Source: Candidatus Giovannonibacteria bacterium RIFCSPHIGHO2_01_FULL_45_24
GTDB taxonomy: Bacteria > Patescibacteriota > Minisyncoccia > UBA11713 > 2-01-FULL-45-33
Reading direction: 5' to 3'
NCBI GenBank assembly: GCA_001778495.1
Contig: MFHE01000010.1
Coordinates: 119,292 to 153,897 of the forward strand
Length of the DNA: 34,606 nt
The number at the start of each line of letters is the position of its first letter. Position 1 is the first letter of the stretch. Of this stretch, positions 50 through 31,494 are shown piece by piece. The translations under genes were made by a program, and so were the position numbers. The notes beneath the pieces are model-generated. The model had not been told where the DNA came from. It saw nothing but the letters and a program-made list of their open reading frames with translations, and searched no databases.

Positions 50-1489
50 TTAAGCTAAAATCATTTGTTCCACTTGCTTTTGCGCCGAAATAACTATGCT
101 TTCCGCCTCTTGTCGCAATTCCGTTGCTTTCGCTCGTATTTTTCTAATTTTACCAACCATTTCATTTTGCTTGTCTTTTGACGGATAAATAACTTGCAAA
201 CTTCCAACTTCATCAAGATTGATATTTGCGCGAGCCGCGTATCTTTTTATGCGATCTAATTCCATTTGCCCAAATTTTGAAAGTAAAAATTCTTTTGCAT
301 ATTCTGGATACACATCATCTTTTAATCTAACGGAGGCTAGATTTTGACTTATATTAGCTTCTCTGTCCATATTGTAAACAGATACTTGTCCAATGGTCGC
401 CCCAATCAGTGCAATAAGCAAATCTCCTTTTTCTAATTGTGAACTTTTAAGTTTTTTATTATGGATTTCTTTTTTAATAAAATTTAAGTTATCAAAATCA
501 ATTTCATTGTCGGGGTTAATGTCTCCGCTTCGCAAAAATGGTATTCCGTCATTTTGATTTGTATAAGCATCTCCACCGGACAAAGGCGTTGAACCACTTG
601 TTATTTTTGTTGAAAGATTTTTCAAAGTTTTAACATTATATTTTGTGGTTGAAAAAATCTTGTCTAACATTTTAAAAATAGGACGAAAATATGAAGGGTC
701 AAGTCGGGTCTGAATTTCATCACTCCAAATCTGAAACACTCGCTCTGGGCTTTCTTTTGGAATATCTATACCAAGCTCACCGAAAACAAAATCATCTATT
801 GAGAATAAAACATTTTCAACTTCCGCTTTTTTCCTTTGTCTCTGCTCGTATGCTTTTTGGATTTTCTTGACGACTTCGTTTTGGATAGAAATAGGCGGGA
901 TTGGAATATCAAAATTCTTTATCGTTTCAATGGTGATATTCCCTTGAATCGCGCCGATTTTCTCTCGTTCAATCAACTTTCGGCTCGCTTCACCATTAAG
1001 CCAAGCGGCGACATATTGTTTATTTATTTTGTCGTTGAGACAAAATTTAATCATAAAAGAACCGAACGCAAAACCTTCCACCTCTTTCGGAACGACAATA
1101 ACAATACCTACCGAGCCACTCCTTGAAATAAGTAAATCGTTCTCGTGAACAACTGCCTTGCCTATTTCATCGCTCCGGCTTTCTGGTAAATAAACAATCT
1201 TACTTAAATCAAGTCCGTCGTTTTTCAAGTTTAGGATACGCAAAAGAGGCACGCCGGAATCCACATATTCGTTTGTCGTTGAAATGCCGTAGCGAATATC
1301 AGTAATAAAATCGCCCAATTTTTGCGATTCGTATTTCCCATGTTGTATCGCTTTTTGAAGTTCACGGATGGCCGGTATCCAATACTTCACGTCAAGGCGG
1401 CGACCCGCTATCGCATCCTCACTCCAAGTTGCAAAAACTTGGAGAGGAGTTGAATCGTTTTTACTTTTTGAATTTCTTGTATTCTTCAT
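50..1489 (-). CDS. hsdS: Restriction-modification specificity subunit (HsdS)
   Basis: DNA-recognition subunit of a type I-like restriction-modification enzyme. The 479-residue protein has the usual two-repeat layout. A first target-recognition domain ends at 'IPIPPISIQNEVVKKI' and leads into a helical spacer. A second recognition domain follows and ends in 'YPSKDKQNEMVGKIRKI' and a C-terminal helix. I chose the ATG at 1489 (MKNTRNSKSK) over the ORF-track start at 1618, because the longer version would overlap the methyltransferase gene by about 160 bases; from 1489 the overlap is 29 bases. It is the last gene of the pair with the upstream nuclease-methyltransferase. No separate hsdR is visible in the window, though one could lie beyond the left edge. 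The family call is firm; the DNA target cannot be read from sequence. Confidence 0.9.
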   Translation of the reverse strand: MKNTRNSKSKNDSTPLQVFATWSEDAIAGRRLDVKYWIPAIRELQKAIQHGKYESQKLGDFITDIRYGISTTNEYVDSGVPLLRILNLKNDGLDLSKIVYLPESRSDEIGKAVVHENDLLISRSGSVGIVIVVPKEVEGFAFGSFMIKFCLNDKINKQYVAAWLNGEASRKLIEREKIGAIQGNITIETIKNFDIPIPPISIQNEVVKKIQKAYEQRQRKKAEVENVLFSIDDFVFGELGIDIPKESPERVFQIWSDEIQTRLDPSYFRPIFKMLDKIFSTTKYNVKTLKNLSTKITSGSTPLSGGDAYTNQNDGIPFLRSGDINPDNEIDFDNLNFIKKEIHNKKLKSSQLEKGDLLIALIGATIGQVSVYNMDREANISQNLASVRLKDDVYPEYAKEFLLSKFGQMELDRIKRYAARANINLDEVGSLQVIYPSKDKQNEMVGKIRKIRAKATELRQEAESIVISAQKQVEQMILA

Positions 1490-3248
1490 AAATATCGTTG
1501 AAATCATTTTTGGCGTCTTTCTTACCTGTCGCTTCGTAGCCAATGTGTTCGGCAATCGCCATAAAAATTTTATAGCGTCCCAGCTTTTCCTTGCCACCCT
1601 TTTTACGAACGAATACAAGCGATGATTTCACGCCTGCGCCGAAGTGGGTAAATGCGAATTGCGGCAAACTGACGATTGCCTGTATCTGTGTTTTTTCTAT
1701 TAGAAAATCTCGGACATATTGTAGGGTTGAGTTAGACAAAATGCCGTCCGGCAAAACGATAGCAATTTGGCCAGTTTCCGGCTTTAGAAAATCTATACAC
1801 CGCTCAATAAATAATACTTCGGTCTTCTGATTATCCATCGCTTTGATTTTGCCTTTGGCGTCTTTTTTCTTCCCAAGAGCAAATTTCTCAAGATATGGAT
1901 GCTCGCTTCTTTTTACATTCGCTCCAAACGGCGGATTGGTAACGATAATGTCAAAGCGATTTTTAGCAAAGCCCGAATTTTTGGCCGTCATTTTTTCTAT
2001 ATCGTTGAGCGCGTCGTGGCCGATGACATTCGTATGGCCGTCGTCGTGAATAATCATATTCATTTTGGCTACACGAGCGATGGAATCGTTAATCTCAATA
2101 CCAAAGAGATTGTTTTGGGCAAAATCGTGCCAGTATCGCCATTGTTCTTTTTCTTCGTCCGGATAATATCCCTTTGCTTGGGCGCGGACTTCGTCAAGCG
2201 CGTGAAGTAGGAAGCCGCCCGAACCGCAAGCGGGGTCAAGCACAAGGTCGTCATTTTTTATACCCATCATCTTTACGGCAAAGCTCACAATGTTGCGCGG
2301 CGTAAAGAACTGGCCGCTTTTGCCTTTGAAAAAGTCCTCCATAAAATGTTCAAAGGCAACGCCCTTTGTATCCAAATCTGTTTTATCAAGAGAAATACCT
2401 TGTAAGTGCTCTACCACCGTATAGAGTTCTTCCGGCTCAATCTTCAAATCCTCCTTGAACACTTCGGGGTCAATCTTTTTCGCCTCTTGATAAATTGCGT
2501 TGATGCGTTTATACACACTCTCCGCGCTTTCGTGCGTCTTAATTTGAAAATCGTAGGGATCGCCTGTCTTGCGCCCTCGCTTTTCATCGCGGATTTTTAC
2601 AAAAATAATTTTTGCGAACTCATCAAACGCTGTTGTCGGCGCACGCTTACCGCCAGCCCATAGCGTATCGTGGCATTTTTGAAAGGCGCGTTTGAGGTCG
2701 TCTTGGTCAATCGGCTTCAAATCCCAGTTTGTATCACCTTTCTTGTAGCGGAACTCCTCAATCTTGCCGTAGGAAATCGGAATGTCGGTAATCGTTGCCT
2801 TCTCCGGTTCTTTGTCGTTCCATGCGGCTGTTTCCATCGCGCGGCGAGTGTTACCGGCAACGCAGTTAGCAAACGGGGCGTGAAGAACGCGCGCATTGGC
2901 TATGGCTTGTTTTGTCGCTTGTTCAAATTCAGCGTCAGAAATACCATCCTTCTTACACTCCACCACGATATACGGTTTACGCTTGCCGTCATCTTCATAA
3001 ATAACAATGTCAGCGTATCGTTCGGGCGTGCGGTCTGGCATTTCCACTTCAAGCTCAATGCGCGCAGCCGGATAGTTGTATTTCTCTATCAAGTCAAAAT
3101 AATACTCGGCTCGGACTTTTTCCTCCGGGTCGTTGAGATTTTCTTTGTGGCCGGACGGAAGATACTCAATCTTCGCCCCGTTGTTGTGGAGACGAAAATA
3201 TCCTTTACGCTCTCCCTCTTTCAAGATTTTCTCAAAAGTGTTTGACAT
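1461..3248 (-). CDS. Fused nuclease-like / N6-adenine DNA methyltransferase (HsdM-type)
   Basis: A 595-residue protein with two parts. The N-terminal ~170 residues resemble the HsdR N-terminal nuclease domain: 'RYADIVIYEDD...YIVVECKK' gives a PD-(D/E)XK-like set of D80, E97 and K99. The rest is a gamma-class adenine methyltransferase, with 'GQFFTP' at 312-317, the SAM-binding 'DPACGSGGF' at 338-346 and the catalytic 'NPPF' at 438-441. It therefore probably carries both cleavage and methylation and works with the HsdS encoded just downstream. Databases often label this architecture simply as HsdM. Having nuclease and methyltransferase in one chain beside a separate S subunit recalls the BcgI-type (type IIB) design; that comparison is inference. 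The start ATG at 3248 fits the usual N-terminus. Confidence 0.85.
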   Translation of the reverse strand: MSNTFEKILKEGERKGYFRLHNNGAKIEYLPSGHKENLNDPEEKVRAEYYFDLIEKYNYPAARIELEVEMPDRTPERYADIVIYEDDGKRKPYIVVECKKDGISDAEFEQATKQAIANARVLHAPFANCVAGNTRRAMETAAWNDKEPEKATITDIPISYGKIEEFRYKKGDTNWDLKPIDQDDLKRAFQKCHDTLWAGGKRAPTTAFDEFAKIIFVKIRDEKRGRKTGDPYDFQIKTHESAESVYKRINAIYQEAKKIDPEVFKEDLKIEPEELYTVVEHLQGISLDKTDLDTKGVAFEHFMEDFFKGKSGQFFTPRNIVSFAVKMMGIKNDDLVLDPACGSGGFLLHALDEVRAQAKGYYPDEEKEQWRYWHDFAQNNLFGIEINDSIARVAKMNMIIHDDGHTNVIGHDALNDIEKMTAKNSGFAKNRFDIIVTNPPFGANVKRSEHPYLEKFALGKKKDAKGKIKAMDNQKTEVLFIERCIDFLKPETGQIAIVLPDGILSNSTLQYVRDFLIEKTQIQAIVSLPQFAFTHFGAGVKSSLVFVRKKGGKEKLGRYKIFMAIAEHIGYEATGKKDAKNDFNDIYEEYKKFKK

Positions 3249-3273
3249 AGTTATTTCATTAAATCATCAACAC

Positions 3274-3501
3274 TCATATCAAAAACCGAATGTCTTTAAT
3301 TAGCACCCTGAATCTATCAAGGGGTGTCTGATTCTTTTCGTTTGTGATGAATGTTAGATCGGAAGACATGAAATATCCTTCATCTTCGCATAAAATCCTT
3401 AATTTTTGAAGTGTTTTTTGAGCAACCAAAGTTATCAACTTCGGGCTCTCTGGACTCCCTAGCGGGGTTGCGTCATCCCTTACCTTGATAAAGGTCGGCA
3501 T
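3274..3501 (-). CDS. Small hypothetical protein upstream of the R-M pair
   Basis: Not recognised. The ORF encodes about 75 residues from the ATG at 3501 (MPTFIKVRDD). The ORF track extends it to 3540, into the recombinase start, which is unlikely. It lies 25 bases upstream of the methyltransferase on the same strand and could be the first gene of that operon. In the short gap sits an 8-codon ORF (MSVDDLMK) overlapping its stop by ATGA. No motif or membrane segment is visible. It may equally be a chance ORF in the promoter region between divergent genes. Confidence 0.3.
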   Translation of the reverse strand: MPTFIKVRDDATPLGSPESPKLITLVAQKTLQKLRILCEDEGYFMSSDLTFITNEKNQTPLDRFRVLIKDIRFLI

Positions 3502-3527
3502 TATTAAGGGCTTAAAGGGAAAATTGT

Positions 3528-4850
3528 ATGGACTTAACAAAGACTTTGACGCCTAATAAGGCGAGGGAAGAGCAGGCAATCACGGCTATCAAATACGCGC
3601 TTTACGCAAGAAAGAGTACGGAATCGGAAGAGCGCCAAGTGCTTTCCATTGATAGCCAAGTTAAAGAGATGCTGCAGCTTGCTGAAAAAGAAAATCTCAA
3701 TATCGTTGAGATTAAACGCGAAAGCCATTCGGCGAAAAATGTCGGGCAACGCCCAATATTCAACGAACTTATTGGCGATATCCGCGCCGGAAAATTCAAC
3801 GGAATACTTTGCTGGGCTCCCGATCGAATAGCAAGAAATGCCGGAGATCTCGGAGCCGTAGTTGATTTGATAGATCAAAAACTGCTTCTTGAGGTCAGAA
3901 CCTATGGACAGAAATTTTCAAACTCTCCCAGCGAAAAATTCCTTCTCATGATTCTTGGATCGCAAGCCAAGCTCGAAAATGATCAGAAAGGGATAAATGT
4001 GAAAAGAGGCTTGCGAGCCAGAGTGGAGATGGGATTATGGCCGACGACCGCGCCTACAGGATATCTCAATGAAAAACGGACCGACAGAAAAGGCCATATT
4101 CTTACAGACCCGGAACGCGCGCCGATTATCAAGAAAATGTTTGAGAAAGTGGCCAACGAAGGATGGAGCGGAAGGAAATTGTATCACTGGCTGAAGTTTG
4201 AGATAAACTTCAAAACCAAAGGCAACAAGAATTTGTCTTTAAGCAATATTTATCTGATACTTCAGAACCATTTTTACTACGGCGTGTTTGAATATCCGCG
4301 AGGCGGCGGGAACTGGTATACCGGAAAACACGAGCCGTTAATCAATAAAGAATTGTTTCTGCAAGTTCAAGACCGGTTAAAAAGAGACCAGCTGCAGCGC
4401 GAGAATAGAGAGTTCGCTTTTACAAAGCTGCTCACATGCGGTCTCTGCGGATCAGGAATTACGGCTTGCGAGAAATTCAAAAAATTGAAAGACGGCACTA
4501 CTAATAAGTATATCTACTACGGCTGTGCGAGAAGCAAAAACAAAAACTGCGATTTTGGGTATACCAGAGAAGAAGAATTGATAAAGCAACTAATGTCTAT
4601 AATAGACGAAATTGACATGAACGAAGTCGGCATAAGGCACAGATTTGAAAAAGAGATTGAGCGATTCAATAAATTCCAGCAAGGGATTCTCAAGATGAAC
4701 GGCGGTAAAGTAAAAGCCAAGGCAATCAATGTGAGAGAATACGCCAAGTATATTCTTCAGGAAGGAAGCATGATTGAGAAAAGAGAGTTGCTTGGATGTC
4801 TGAAAGGTAAAATTGTTCTGCAGAATAAAACTGTAAGATTATTAAAGTAA
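3528..4850 (+). CDS. Large serine recombinase
   Basis: Site-specific DNA recombinase of the large serine (resolvase/invertase) family, 440 residues. The catalytic N-terminal domain begins around residue 22, with the nucleophile Ser30 in 'YALYARKSTES' and the conserved 'DRIARN' near 100. The 'recombinase' DNA-binding domain follows (about 160-290). A zinc ribbon comes next, with C304, C307, C333 and C341 ('LLTCGLCG', 'YGCARSKNKNC'), and then a short helical C-terminus. It is divergent from the R-M genes, and a strong hairpin follows its stop codon. Such enzymes usually integrate or excise mobile DNA, so this gene probably belongs to the element that carries the adjacent R-M genes. I could not identify att sites. 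The start at 3528 has an 'aaaggga' purine run before it. Confidence 0.9.
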   Translation: MDLTKTLTPNKAREEQAITAIKYALYARKSTESEERQVLSIDSQVKEMLQLAEKENLNIVEIKRESHSAKNVGQRPIFNELIGDIRAGKFNGILCWAPDRIARNAGDLGAVVDLIDQKLLLEVRTYGQKFSNSPSEKFLLMILGSQAKLENDQKGINVKRGLRARVEMGLWPTTAPTGYLNEKRTDRKGHILTDPERAPIIKKMFEKVANEGWSGRKLYHWLKFEINFKTKGNKNLSLSNIYLILQNHFYYGVFEYPRGGGNWYTGKHEPLINKELFLQVQDRLKRDQLQRENREFAFTKLLTCGLCGSGITACEKFKKLKDGTTNKYIYYGCARSKNKNCDFGYTREEELIKQLMSIIDEIDMNEVGIRHRFEKEIERFNKFQQGILKMNGGKVKAKAINVREYAKYILQEGSMIEKRELLGCLKGKIVLQNKTVRLLK

Positions 4851-6175: not shown

Positions 6176-6712
6176 TTAAATATATTCAAGCTCGCGGAGC
6201 GCCTTTTCAAAAAGGTTGAGCGCCCGTTCGGCGTCTTCTTTGGGAAGTTGGTAGCCGGCTTCGTGAGCGATGCGGTTTCTGATTTTGTGCGCTTCCCACA
6301 AAGCATCCAGCGAATCTAAATCTGCCGGCTCAATGTTTTTCAGCTTCTCGCCCAAATTCTCCCCGCCGTATCCAGCCATGGCTAAAATTTTCTCAATCAA
6401 AGAATCCGCGGCGATTACGGCCTGCTTCCTGTCATTTTCGTTTTCCGAGCCGCCTTGAACCAGAATTTTTTGCCAAGTTTCCAGATTTACATTGTTCTCC
6501 GGCGAGGCGCTTTGGGGCTCGTCAAAAACATGCATCGCGCGGAAAATCCGATTGGATTTGTAAACGCTGTAAATTATGCCAAAAACCAGCGGGATGGAAA
6601 TATAAACCGCAACCGCCTTAAGCAAAGGAATCGGCTGCGAATAATCATAGTGCAGCAAAAAATCCGCGAGATTGAAAACCAAGTCAAAAACCAAATTTAT
6701 AAAATCAATCAT
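6176..6712 (-). CDS. Membrane-anchored protein with HEPN-like RNxxxH motif
   Basis: The 178-residue protein has a hydrophobic N-terminal half, with helices near residues 2-20 and a clearer one at about 32-50 ('VAVYISIPLVFGIIYSVY'). A soluble helical C-terminal part (about 85-178) contains 'AHKIRNRIAHEAGY'. The R-N-x-x-x-H arrangement, placed late in an all-helical domain, resembles HEPN domains, which include RNases and nucleic-acid-binding helical bundles. Function here is unknown. The start overlaps the gatA stop by four bases (ATGA), so it is translated with gatC-gatA. The motif may simply be structural. Confidence 0.75.
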   Translation of the reverse strand: MIDFINLVFDLVFNLADFLLHYDYSQPIPLLKAVAVYISIPLVFGIIYSVYKSNRIFRAMHVFDEPQSASPENNVNLETWQKILVQGGSENENDRKQAVIAADSLIEKILAMAGYGGENLGEKLKNIEPADLDSLDALWEAHKIRNRIAHEAGYQLPKEDAERALNLFEKALRELEYI

Positions 6713-30445: not shown

Positions 30446-30529
30446 AAAAAATTATGCGAATACGCCCTGAATTTTTTGACATATTCGGACTCGCAACATT
30501 CGGCTTTATTTTTGTTTTGTCTTAAAGGC

Positions 30530-30580
30530 GGCGGCCTGCCCCGTAGCTCCGCCGAAGGCGGATGGTATCGGGGAGCTGCA
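30530..30580. repeat. Palindromic element downstream of tRNA-Leu
   Basis: Contains TCCGCC-GAA-GGCGGA (30548-30562), the same hairpin as in the hisS and mfd repeats, nested in a larger AGCTCC...GGAGCT / CCCCG...CGGGG fold. The region 30446-30680 has no credible gene; the 88-residue ORF there begins inside the tRNA. Confidence 0.6.
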
Positions 30581-30622
30581 CCGCTGACAATTTCAAGTTT
30601 TTCTTTGGCGGAATTCGGATTT

Positions 30623-30646
30623 ACTGAAATTCTACCGAATTTCAGT
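30623..30646. repeat. Perfect 10-bp hairpin
   Basis: ACTGAAATTC-TACC-GAATTTCAGT. It is flanked on both sides by 'ttggcgg' followed by an AATTC-containing string, so it looks like the core of another short repeat element. No gene is attached. Confidence 0.6.
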
Positions 30647-30678
30647 CTTGGCGGCAAATTCTTTGTTCTTTGAATTAT

Positions 30679-30912
30679 GAAAAAGAAGAAGCCCCTCGCA
30701 GCGATATTACCACTGCAAGGGGCTTAGGTTGGAACTTGGCGGGAGAGTGAGATTACTGCTTGCTTTCACGGATCCACTCATCAGCGTAGATACCTAAATT
30801 AGATGTCCAATGCGCTACTCACAGAGTAAACAAAGAGGATTTTCCGCTTTTTTCTCCCGTCTTATCAAAGAGCTATCAGTAATTTGAAGGATAATTCATC
30901 ACCTCAAATCAT
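30679..30912 (-). ncRNA. Candidate structured non-coding RNA
   Basis: A stand-alone transcript of about 235 nt is predicted, with a near-consensus promoter, a strong terminator and no long ORF. Hairpins can be drawn by eye: ATTTGAGG...CCTTCAAAT, TACTC-TGT-GAGTA and GACATCTA-ATT-TAGGTATC. A long-range CGGGAGA/TCTCCCG pairing encloses the middle. Size and isolation would fit 6S RNA or an unknown class. I see no tmRNA, RNase P or SRP RNA signature. A 7-codon ORF (MNYPSNY) after GAGGTG lies near the 5' end and could be a leader peptide. About 150 bases lie between its promoter and the next gene. Confidence 0.55.
30680..30725 (-). terminator. Terminator of the candidate ncRNA
   Basis: On the minus strand AAGCCCCT...AGGGGCTT (8 bp) with an inner GCAG/CTGC stem, followed by CTTCTTTTT. 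Confidence 0.7.
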
Positions 30913-30918
30913 GCGCTA

Positions 30919-30947
30919 AGTGTAGCATATTACGTCTATCCTGTCAA
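30919..30947 (-). promoter_or_regulatory. Promoter of the candidate ncRNA
   Basis: TTGACA, exactly 17 bases, TACACT (4/6). The expected start is near 30912. It is the best -35/-10 spacing match in this region and has no protein gene after it. Confidence 0.75.
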
Positions 30948-31058
30948 GCTCAACCGAAAACAATCAAAAAGGCTCTATTTCAGGCCATTCATTACTCTAA
31001 ATCAAATGATTAAAATTTTTCTTTTCTGCTTCTACAAAATATGGTTTGAGCCGATGTT

Positions 31059-31379
31059 TTATTTGCCGCTTTTTATTCCAAGCTTCCTTTCTACCAGAGA
31101 AAGGCGCGCCATAATGTCTTCGATTTCCATGCGCGGGATAAGCTCTTTCCGTATTTCTGCAATATCCCGCTCAATTACAGTTATCCTGGCGTCAATATGA
31201 GCCAATCTTGTCTCAAATCTATCCATTCTTGTTTCAAGCCGATCAAACCGCTTATCAACCTGTTCAAAACGTTTGTCCACTTGTTCAAAACGCTTGTCCA
31301 TGTCAACTTTTTTGGCGGTTTCGTCAAAACCGACTTTTACCATTCTAGCTAAATCGTCTAATGTAATTTTCCTTAGCAT
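31059..31379 (-). CDS. Small coiled-coil protein
   Basis: A 106-residue, highly charged heptad-repeat protein. Repeats 'DKRFEQVDKRFEQVDKRFDRLETRMDRFETRL' run through the middle and the end reads 'SLVERKLGIKSGK'. There is no membrane segment. Proteins of this style are common in parcubacterial genomes and their function is unknown to me. The frameshifted gene at 24719-24951 looks like a relative. It has its own leaderless promoter. Confidence 0.8.
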   Translation of the reverse strand: MLRKITLDDLARMVKVGFDETAKKVDMDKRFEQVDKRFEQVDKRFDRLETRMDRFETRLAHIDARITVIERDIAEIRKELIPRMEIEDIMARLSLVERKLGIKSGK

Positions 31380-31386
31380 ATTACTT

Positions 31387-31415
31387 AAATTAATAATAAA
31401 AACAATCTATGTCAA
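31387..31415 (-). promoter_or_regulatory. Promoter of the coiled-coil gene (leaderless)
   Basis: TTGACA (perfect), 17 bases, TAATTT, then AAGTAAT (7 bases) and the ATG at 31379. No Shine-Dalgarno sequence is present. Confidence 0.7.
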
Positions 31416-31423
31416 ACTTTTTT

Positions 31424-31494
31424 TGCGGCCAGCGAGAATCGAACTCGCGTCTTGTCCTTGGCAAGGACACATTCTGCCACTAAACCATGGCCGC
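31424..31494 (-). tRNA. tRNA-Gly (GCC)
   Basis: Acceptor GCGGCCA/TGGCCGC with discriminator A, anticodon arm TGTCC-TTGCCAA-GGACA giving GCC. CCA is not encoded. It is the last of three minus-strand tRNAs. Confidence 0.95.

Follow-up and report, generated by a model that had tools for sequence, protein, structure and literature searches.

A structured RNA in a Patescibacteria genome as the probable remnant of a single-gene cassette

We have identified a structured RNA element of Patescibacteria that, in the 34,606-nucleotide stretch of DNA analysed here (the window), is probably what is left of a single-gene cassette that was gained by horizontal transfer and has since lost its ORF; the host is an uncultured, ultrasmall bacterium. 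Homologues occur in 13 other draft genomes of Patescibacteria, which span several classes and hold about 14 such loci between them; these loci look like an undescribed cassette family in which a common structured RNA leader precedes different genes. At the level of sequence, comparison among the copies shows that they are homologous, that the leader hairpin covaries, that both long-range pairings co-vary, that the window copy has no ORF and that the cassettes have common ends on both sides.

The window comes from a Patescibacteria genome of 531 kb in 14 contigs, whose relatives at the protein level are 'Candidatus Giovannonibacteria' and other Parcubacteria/Paceibacteria; no rRNA operon was found in the stretches of this genome that were examined. 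At one end of the window (50-4850), type I restriction genes lie beside a serine-recombinase-like ORF. From their translations, judged by eye, we take these to be hsdS-like (50-1618), hsdM-like (1461-3248) and serine-recombinase-like (3528-4850) ORFs. The element itself is flanked by tRNA-Leu(taa) and a 106-aa coiled-coil ORF, with tRNA-Gly/Leu/Cys, rbfA and infB nearby. In the close relatives G007 and G008, acyP-like and uppS-like genes, named by eye, fill the same tRNA-bounded interval (L085:9074-10533 and L087:9364-10407) and are absent from the corresponding window interval (30446-31424). In other relatives the flanking tRNAs are adjacent and the interval is closed up. Thus, judging from these neighbourhoods, the element is most likely an addition in the window lineage and not ancestral at this locus.

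The first-pass annotation had described a near-consensus promoter, several hairpins, a long-range CGGGAGA/TCTCCCG pairing and a strong terminator in a region with no gene, and we find all of these on the minus strand of a gene-free interval. The promoter (30947-30919) combines a TTGACA -35 box (30942-30947), a 17-nt spacer and a TACACT -10 box with a TG extension (30919-30924), and matches the consensus at 10 of 12 positions. Sites with at least 10 matches number nine in the 34.6-kb window, and a perfect -35 box occurs in two of them, this promoter included. The -35 box is identical in the homologue in genome G165 and reads TTTACA in that of G712; the -10 box is TATACT in both. Behind the promoter lies a 5' hairpin, TGATTTGAGG ... 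CCTTCAAATTA (30880-30911), recognised by folding and comparison, whose pairing is retained in G165 and G712 through changes from G-U to G-C or A-U. It is followed by a conserved box, ATAGCTCTTTGATAAG (30861-30876), that may resemble an rRNA-type boxA, by the strand CGGGAGA (30853-30859), identified from the fold and from relatives, and by the anti-Shine-Dalgarno segment AATCCTC (30835-30841), which in relatives pairs with the Shine-Dalgarno region of the gene and whose target is missing in the window.

The remainder of the element bears the marks of a loss. A leader hairpin (30772-30831) retains its outer helix, GTTTACTC/GAGTGGAT, and has lost the 3' arm of its inner helix (GCTACTCA in relatives). 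Ten codons, GAT GAG TGG ATC CGT GAA AGC AAG CAG TAA (30753-30782), are probably the end of the lost ORF, a reading based on their position directly before the trailer strand, where relatives have a stop codon; this putative remnant overlaps the retained outer helix strand of the leader hairpin. The trailer strand TCTCCCG (30740-30746) directly follows the putative stop codon, as in relatives, and an intrinsic terminator with a 17-bp stem and a T tail (30689-30725) is evident in the sequence.

Folding energy alone does not support the element, as the terminator gives most of it; homology supports it. The 227-nt window RNA folds better than 200 of 200 dinucleotide shuffles (z -3.70), and CGGGAGA (30859-30853) pairs with TCTCCCG (30746-30740) in both the minimum free energy (MFE) and the centroid fold. 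Once the terminator is removed z falls to -1.15 and 29 of 200 shuffles fold equally well. The local hairpin of the window taken by itself is at chance level (z -0.46) owing to the loss of its inner 3' arm, whereas four intact hairpins are well beyond their shuffled versions in folding energy (z -4.6 to -6.4).

Blastn found no copy in nine family members of the window genome, and over 384 genomes of its class a single clear homologue, in G165 (76% over 162 nt, E 1e-23). With a two-sequence covariance model (R1) the search reached two genomes of other classes, G712 (E 6e-25) and G628 (E 7e-10). A second model (R2), built from G165, G712 and G628 with the window copy left out, recovers the window at 62.6 bits (E 1.2e-10) and adds ten genomes within the class of G628. 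The element occurs sporadically: the class of G628 has 11 carriers among 363 genomes and that of G712 one among 55, and in the window's own class the searches made found only G165 and the window genome. Neither blastn against phages and plasmids nor pattern scans of IMG/VR viral contigs found a copy, and the element thus shows no viral sign. Several short or weak matches were rejected: those in G006 and G004 encode PEKKAEK in related coding sequences and reflect A-rich chance, that at G000:C6 has no visible element around it, those in G326 and G097 are chance-like at 28-29 nt, and the weak R1 matches L100-L103, L023 and L044 are without the common anatomy.

The leader hairpin covaries strongly. 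In a 13-sequence alignment fitted to the hairpin model, which was itself derived from four of those sequences, 91.6% of cells are paired and two-sided changes occur at 12 of 21 pairs. None of 500 shuffles does as well, and pairing falls to 31-48% when the partner strand is slid by 1-3 columns. The inner helix, GAGTAGC/GCTACTC or a compensated form of it, pairs in the other 12 aligned copies, the window being the one without the 3' arm.

Two long-range pairings connect the leader with the gene that it precedes. When the leaders of G712 and G628 are folded, the MFE structure pairs the pyrimidine segment with the Shine-Dalgarno region of the gene itself, and across 14 leaders an anti-Shine-Dalgarno segment matches its own Shine-Dalgarno region better than permuted partners (p 0.0012). 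In the best cases complementarity extends past the Shine-Dalgarno core, reaching 12 bp in G864. Additionally, in five relatives the segment that follows the conserved box can form 7-9 bp with the stretch immediately past the stop codon of the ORF that it precedes, with differing letters from one to the next (AGACGAGAG/CTCTCGTCT, GCGGGAGA/TCTCCCGC, GCGAGAGAA/TTCTCTCGC, AACGAGAA/TTCTCGTT and CGAGAGA/TCTCTCG). Both leaders of G165 match the trailers of their own ORFs. By helix length the permutation p is 0.00015 with the window and 0.00095 without it, and by duplex energy alone about 0.05; a clear helix of 7-9 bp with a GRGAGA-type motif is found in six of the 14 leaders tested. The CGGGAGA/TCTCCCG pairing noticed at the outset is thus real and conserved. 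In relatives its strands enclose an ORF of roughly 120-250 codons; in the window it lies in register with theirs, but with the ORF lost only about 106 nt separate the two strands.

In relatives the leader is followed directly, on its 3' side, by a Shine-Dalgarno sequence and an ATG: in G712, in G628, in both G165 copies and, with few exceptions, at the ten further candidate loci, the weak candidate L127 (31 bits) being without a convincing ORF. A family of response-regulator-like ORFs stands behind the leaders of G712, G628, G902 and G955, and the G955 member is broken. That ORF (L118 / L147) is frameshifted, with 32 aa followed by a 103-aa frame, and represents a second decaying cassette. The remaining cassette ORFs, among those scanned, gave no Pfam, NCBIfam or PHROG match worth naming. 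In most cassettes the cargo ORFs have a GC3 of 0.6-0.9 against AT-richer surroundings, and a terminator-like hairpin typically lies downstream of the stop codon.

The closest cassette to the window copy is that of G712, from another class. The promoter and leader of the window (30784-30957) share 83% identity with the 174 nt on the 5' side of the G712 ORF, and 76% with G165; the segment from the terminator end onward (30572-30690) is 83% identical to the 119-nt flank behind the G712 ORF. Between these retained parts, the 222-aa ORF, its Shine-Dalgarno and the 3' arm of the hairpin are all missing from the window. The window genome holds no homologue of the response-regulator-like family, and downstream of the element on the minus strand the window contains no gene and no Shine-Dalgarno with a start codon; we therefore file the copy as an ORF-less remnant and not as a working member. 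Horizontal transfer is suggested by sequence identity of 83% across classes while family members are without the element. As the codon remnant is just ten codons long and some of it is also part of the outer helix strand that was kept, a different history is possible, in which a small deletion removed the hairpin arm and the downstream part was replaced.

Cassette boundaries suggest, rather than show, mobility, since repeats are found at the ends but no integrase was recognised beside the cassettes and a Y1 transposase occurs in G628 only. G628 and G864 carry unrelated ORFs, yet their cassettes match over 224 nt before the ORF (83%) and over 150 nt behind it (90%). The G712 cassette is bracketed by 50-nt direct repeats of 96% identity (L130:5367-5416 and 6529-6578), and the final ~60 nt of the window's 3' flank resemble this repeat; the window has only such a right-hand repeat-like sequence (30572-30632), close to tRNA-Leu. 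The two-ORF cassette of G165 lies between inverted repeats of 112 nt (100%) and 55 nt (95%) (L129:513-667 and 2518-2671). No integrase or recombinase was recognised in the cassette surroundings, the Y1 transposase lies upstream of the G628 cassette, and a searched genome usually has one cassette locus. The long-range pairing itself may act at the DNA level, as a recombination site.

Two cassettes that are unrelated to each other, those of G165 (L129:1774-1816) and G1016 (L126:1448-1502), have two ORFs, and in each a hammerhead-like core lies after ORF 1 and ahead of leader 2. In these second-gene leaders the core stands in place of the 5' hairpin, at the position that promoter and 5' hairpin occupy in other leaders. 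Both have a type III-like core, CTGATGA...GAAA, with stems I-III readable, as in the type III hammerhead family RF00008; they differ from that family in their placement before a second leader and in their scores, 44.6 bits for G1016 and 28.6 bits for G165, which both fall below the Rfam gathering cut-off of 48.5. Single-strand folds of the two cores did not return the full hammerhead fold as MFE, and a literature search found no report of a hammerhead splitting a two-gene message ahead of a second leader. A candidate hammerhead in the window copy (CTGATGAG...TGAAA around 30783) was rejected, having no Rfam match even at E 10.

The relatives also bear on what kind of RNA this is. The first-pass annotation proposed a divergent 6S RNA, which would bind RNA polymerase, or a new RNA class in this lineage. 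Superficially the element looks like 6S RNA in having a promoter, a size near 200 nt and a helix that closes it over a long range; against this, RF00013 has no match in the whole window genome at E <= 1, while among 14 control genomes the same model matches six, and in the relatives the RNA is the leader of an mRNA whose ORF lies within the closing helix. The element is almost certainly not a 6S RNA. The Rfam covariance-model check put forward alongside that proposal gave no family match in the window stretch, 6S included, down to noise-level E-values, and Rfam 15 at gathering score has none for the window or the intact copies L094, L098, L099, L118-L127 and L129-L131. The proposed new class is largely borne out, as a conserved, covarying RNA outside Rfam, but its relatives are 5' leaders; similarly, 'stand-alone' describes the window copy only, where the gene has been lost, and elsewhere the RNA forms a 5' leader and a 3' trailer around an ORF. 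A riboswitch class, with the covarying hairpin as a ligand aptamer gating the Shine-Dalgarno and the window as a broken member, would account for the hairpin's conservation and the predicted Shine-Dalgarno sequestration. We regard it as distinctly improbable, given downstream ORFs related neither to one another nor to any common metabolite, and a hairpin apex in which most positions pair and sequence conservation is poor.

Given its intact promoter, 5' hairpin and terminator, the window copy could still be in use. The leader might have been kept as a free regulatory RNA acting in trans, for example by presenting its exposed AAUCCUC to other ribosome-binding sites, and a -35 box nearer to consensus than that of G712, the intact 5' hairpin and 17-bp terminator and the retained leader-trailer helix would fit such a role. 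The conserved hairpin is broken and folds at chance level, however, and only a single genome has this copy, all nine family members lacking it, a confinement that makes purifying selection on it not demonstrable. We therefore consider retention as a free RNA unlikely, and prefer the cassette remnant.

Several known systems resemble the intact cassettes in part. The rRNA transcription units have a boxA antitermination leader and a leader-trailer helix (PMC4807359, PMC10250234). They share with the cassettes the order of promoter, boxA-like element, leader strand, product and trailer strand, with the helix bracketing the product; in the cassettes, however, the product is a small ORF and the helix is 7-9 bp as against a long rRNA processing stem. 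When the cassette box was compared with the rRNA leader of one host (G955), the best site was AATGTTGTTTGACAAC, a weak likeness by this test (p 0.07). That rRNA leader (L133:1830-2113) also contains TGTTGTTTGACAACTGAAAAG, which is similar to the cassette box of the same genome, TGTTCTTTGATAAG. The likeness to boxA is judged mainly against the consensus of the E. coli rRNA boxA, TGCTCTTTAACA. Translation-controlling 5' leaders, such as riboswitches and ribosomal-protein leaders, likewise combine a structured 5' UTR with anti-Shine-Dalgarno pairing to the ribosome-binding site, whereas the cassette leader has no Rfam match, serves unrelated ORFs and adds a leader-trailer helix and, occasionally, an upstream hammerhead-like core. 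Integron gene cassettes also carry small, varied ORFs between common ends and are spread over distant genomes; unlike them, the cassettes described here have their own promoter and terminator, are usually solitary in the genomes searched, have no recognised integrase nearby and are bounded by varied repeats. With 6S RNA (RF00013) they have size and a closing helix in common, and differ from it in the lack of a model match and the ORF found in relatives.

From this arrangement we infer transcription, translational control, a role for the boxA-like element, ribozyme cleavage and mobility. An intact cassette would produce from one promoter an mRNA with, in order, the 5' hairpin, the boxA-like element, the leader strand, the anti-Shine-Dalgarno segment, the long covarying hairpin, the Shine-Dalgarno, a small ORF, the trailer strand and the terminator. 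The leader would fold back onto the Shine-Dalgarno, and the second helix would join it to the sequence just past the stop codon, closing the message around the ORF. Translation of a message closed in this way may be held down or conditional, and the mRNA may be protected, stable or circularised. Where a cassette has two ORFs, hammerhead cleavage between them would provide the second leader with its own 5' end.

We tentatively suggest, while regarding it as somewhat short of an even chance, that Patescibacteria harbour a family of mobile cassettes for gene expression, each with an exchangeable small ORF set between two constant parts, a promoter-leader and a trailer-terminator. These two parts would recognise each other as RNA across the ORF, and hammerheads would separate consecutive ORFs so that each keeps a leader of its own. 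A literature search found no regulatory RNA specific to Patescibacteria, and inducible expression tools have been named as a missing need for these organisms (PMC11665869). If the suggestion is true, a leader that accompanies unrelated small genes across classes, closes on its trailer and sometimes follows a hammerhead-like ribozyme would constitute a natural, portable module for gene expression. The cassettes would then offer a handle on the movement and expression of genes of foreign composition in host-dependent bacteria.
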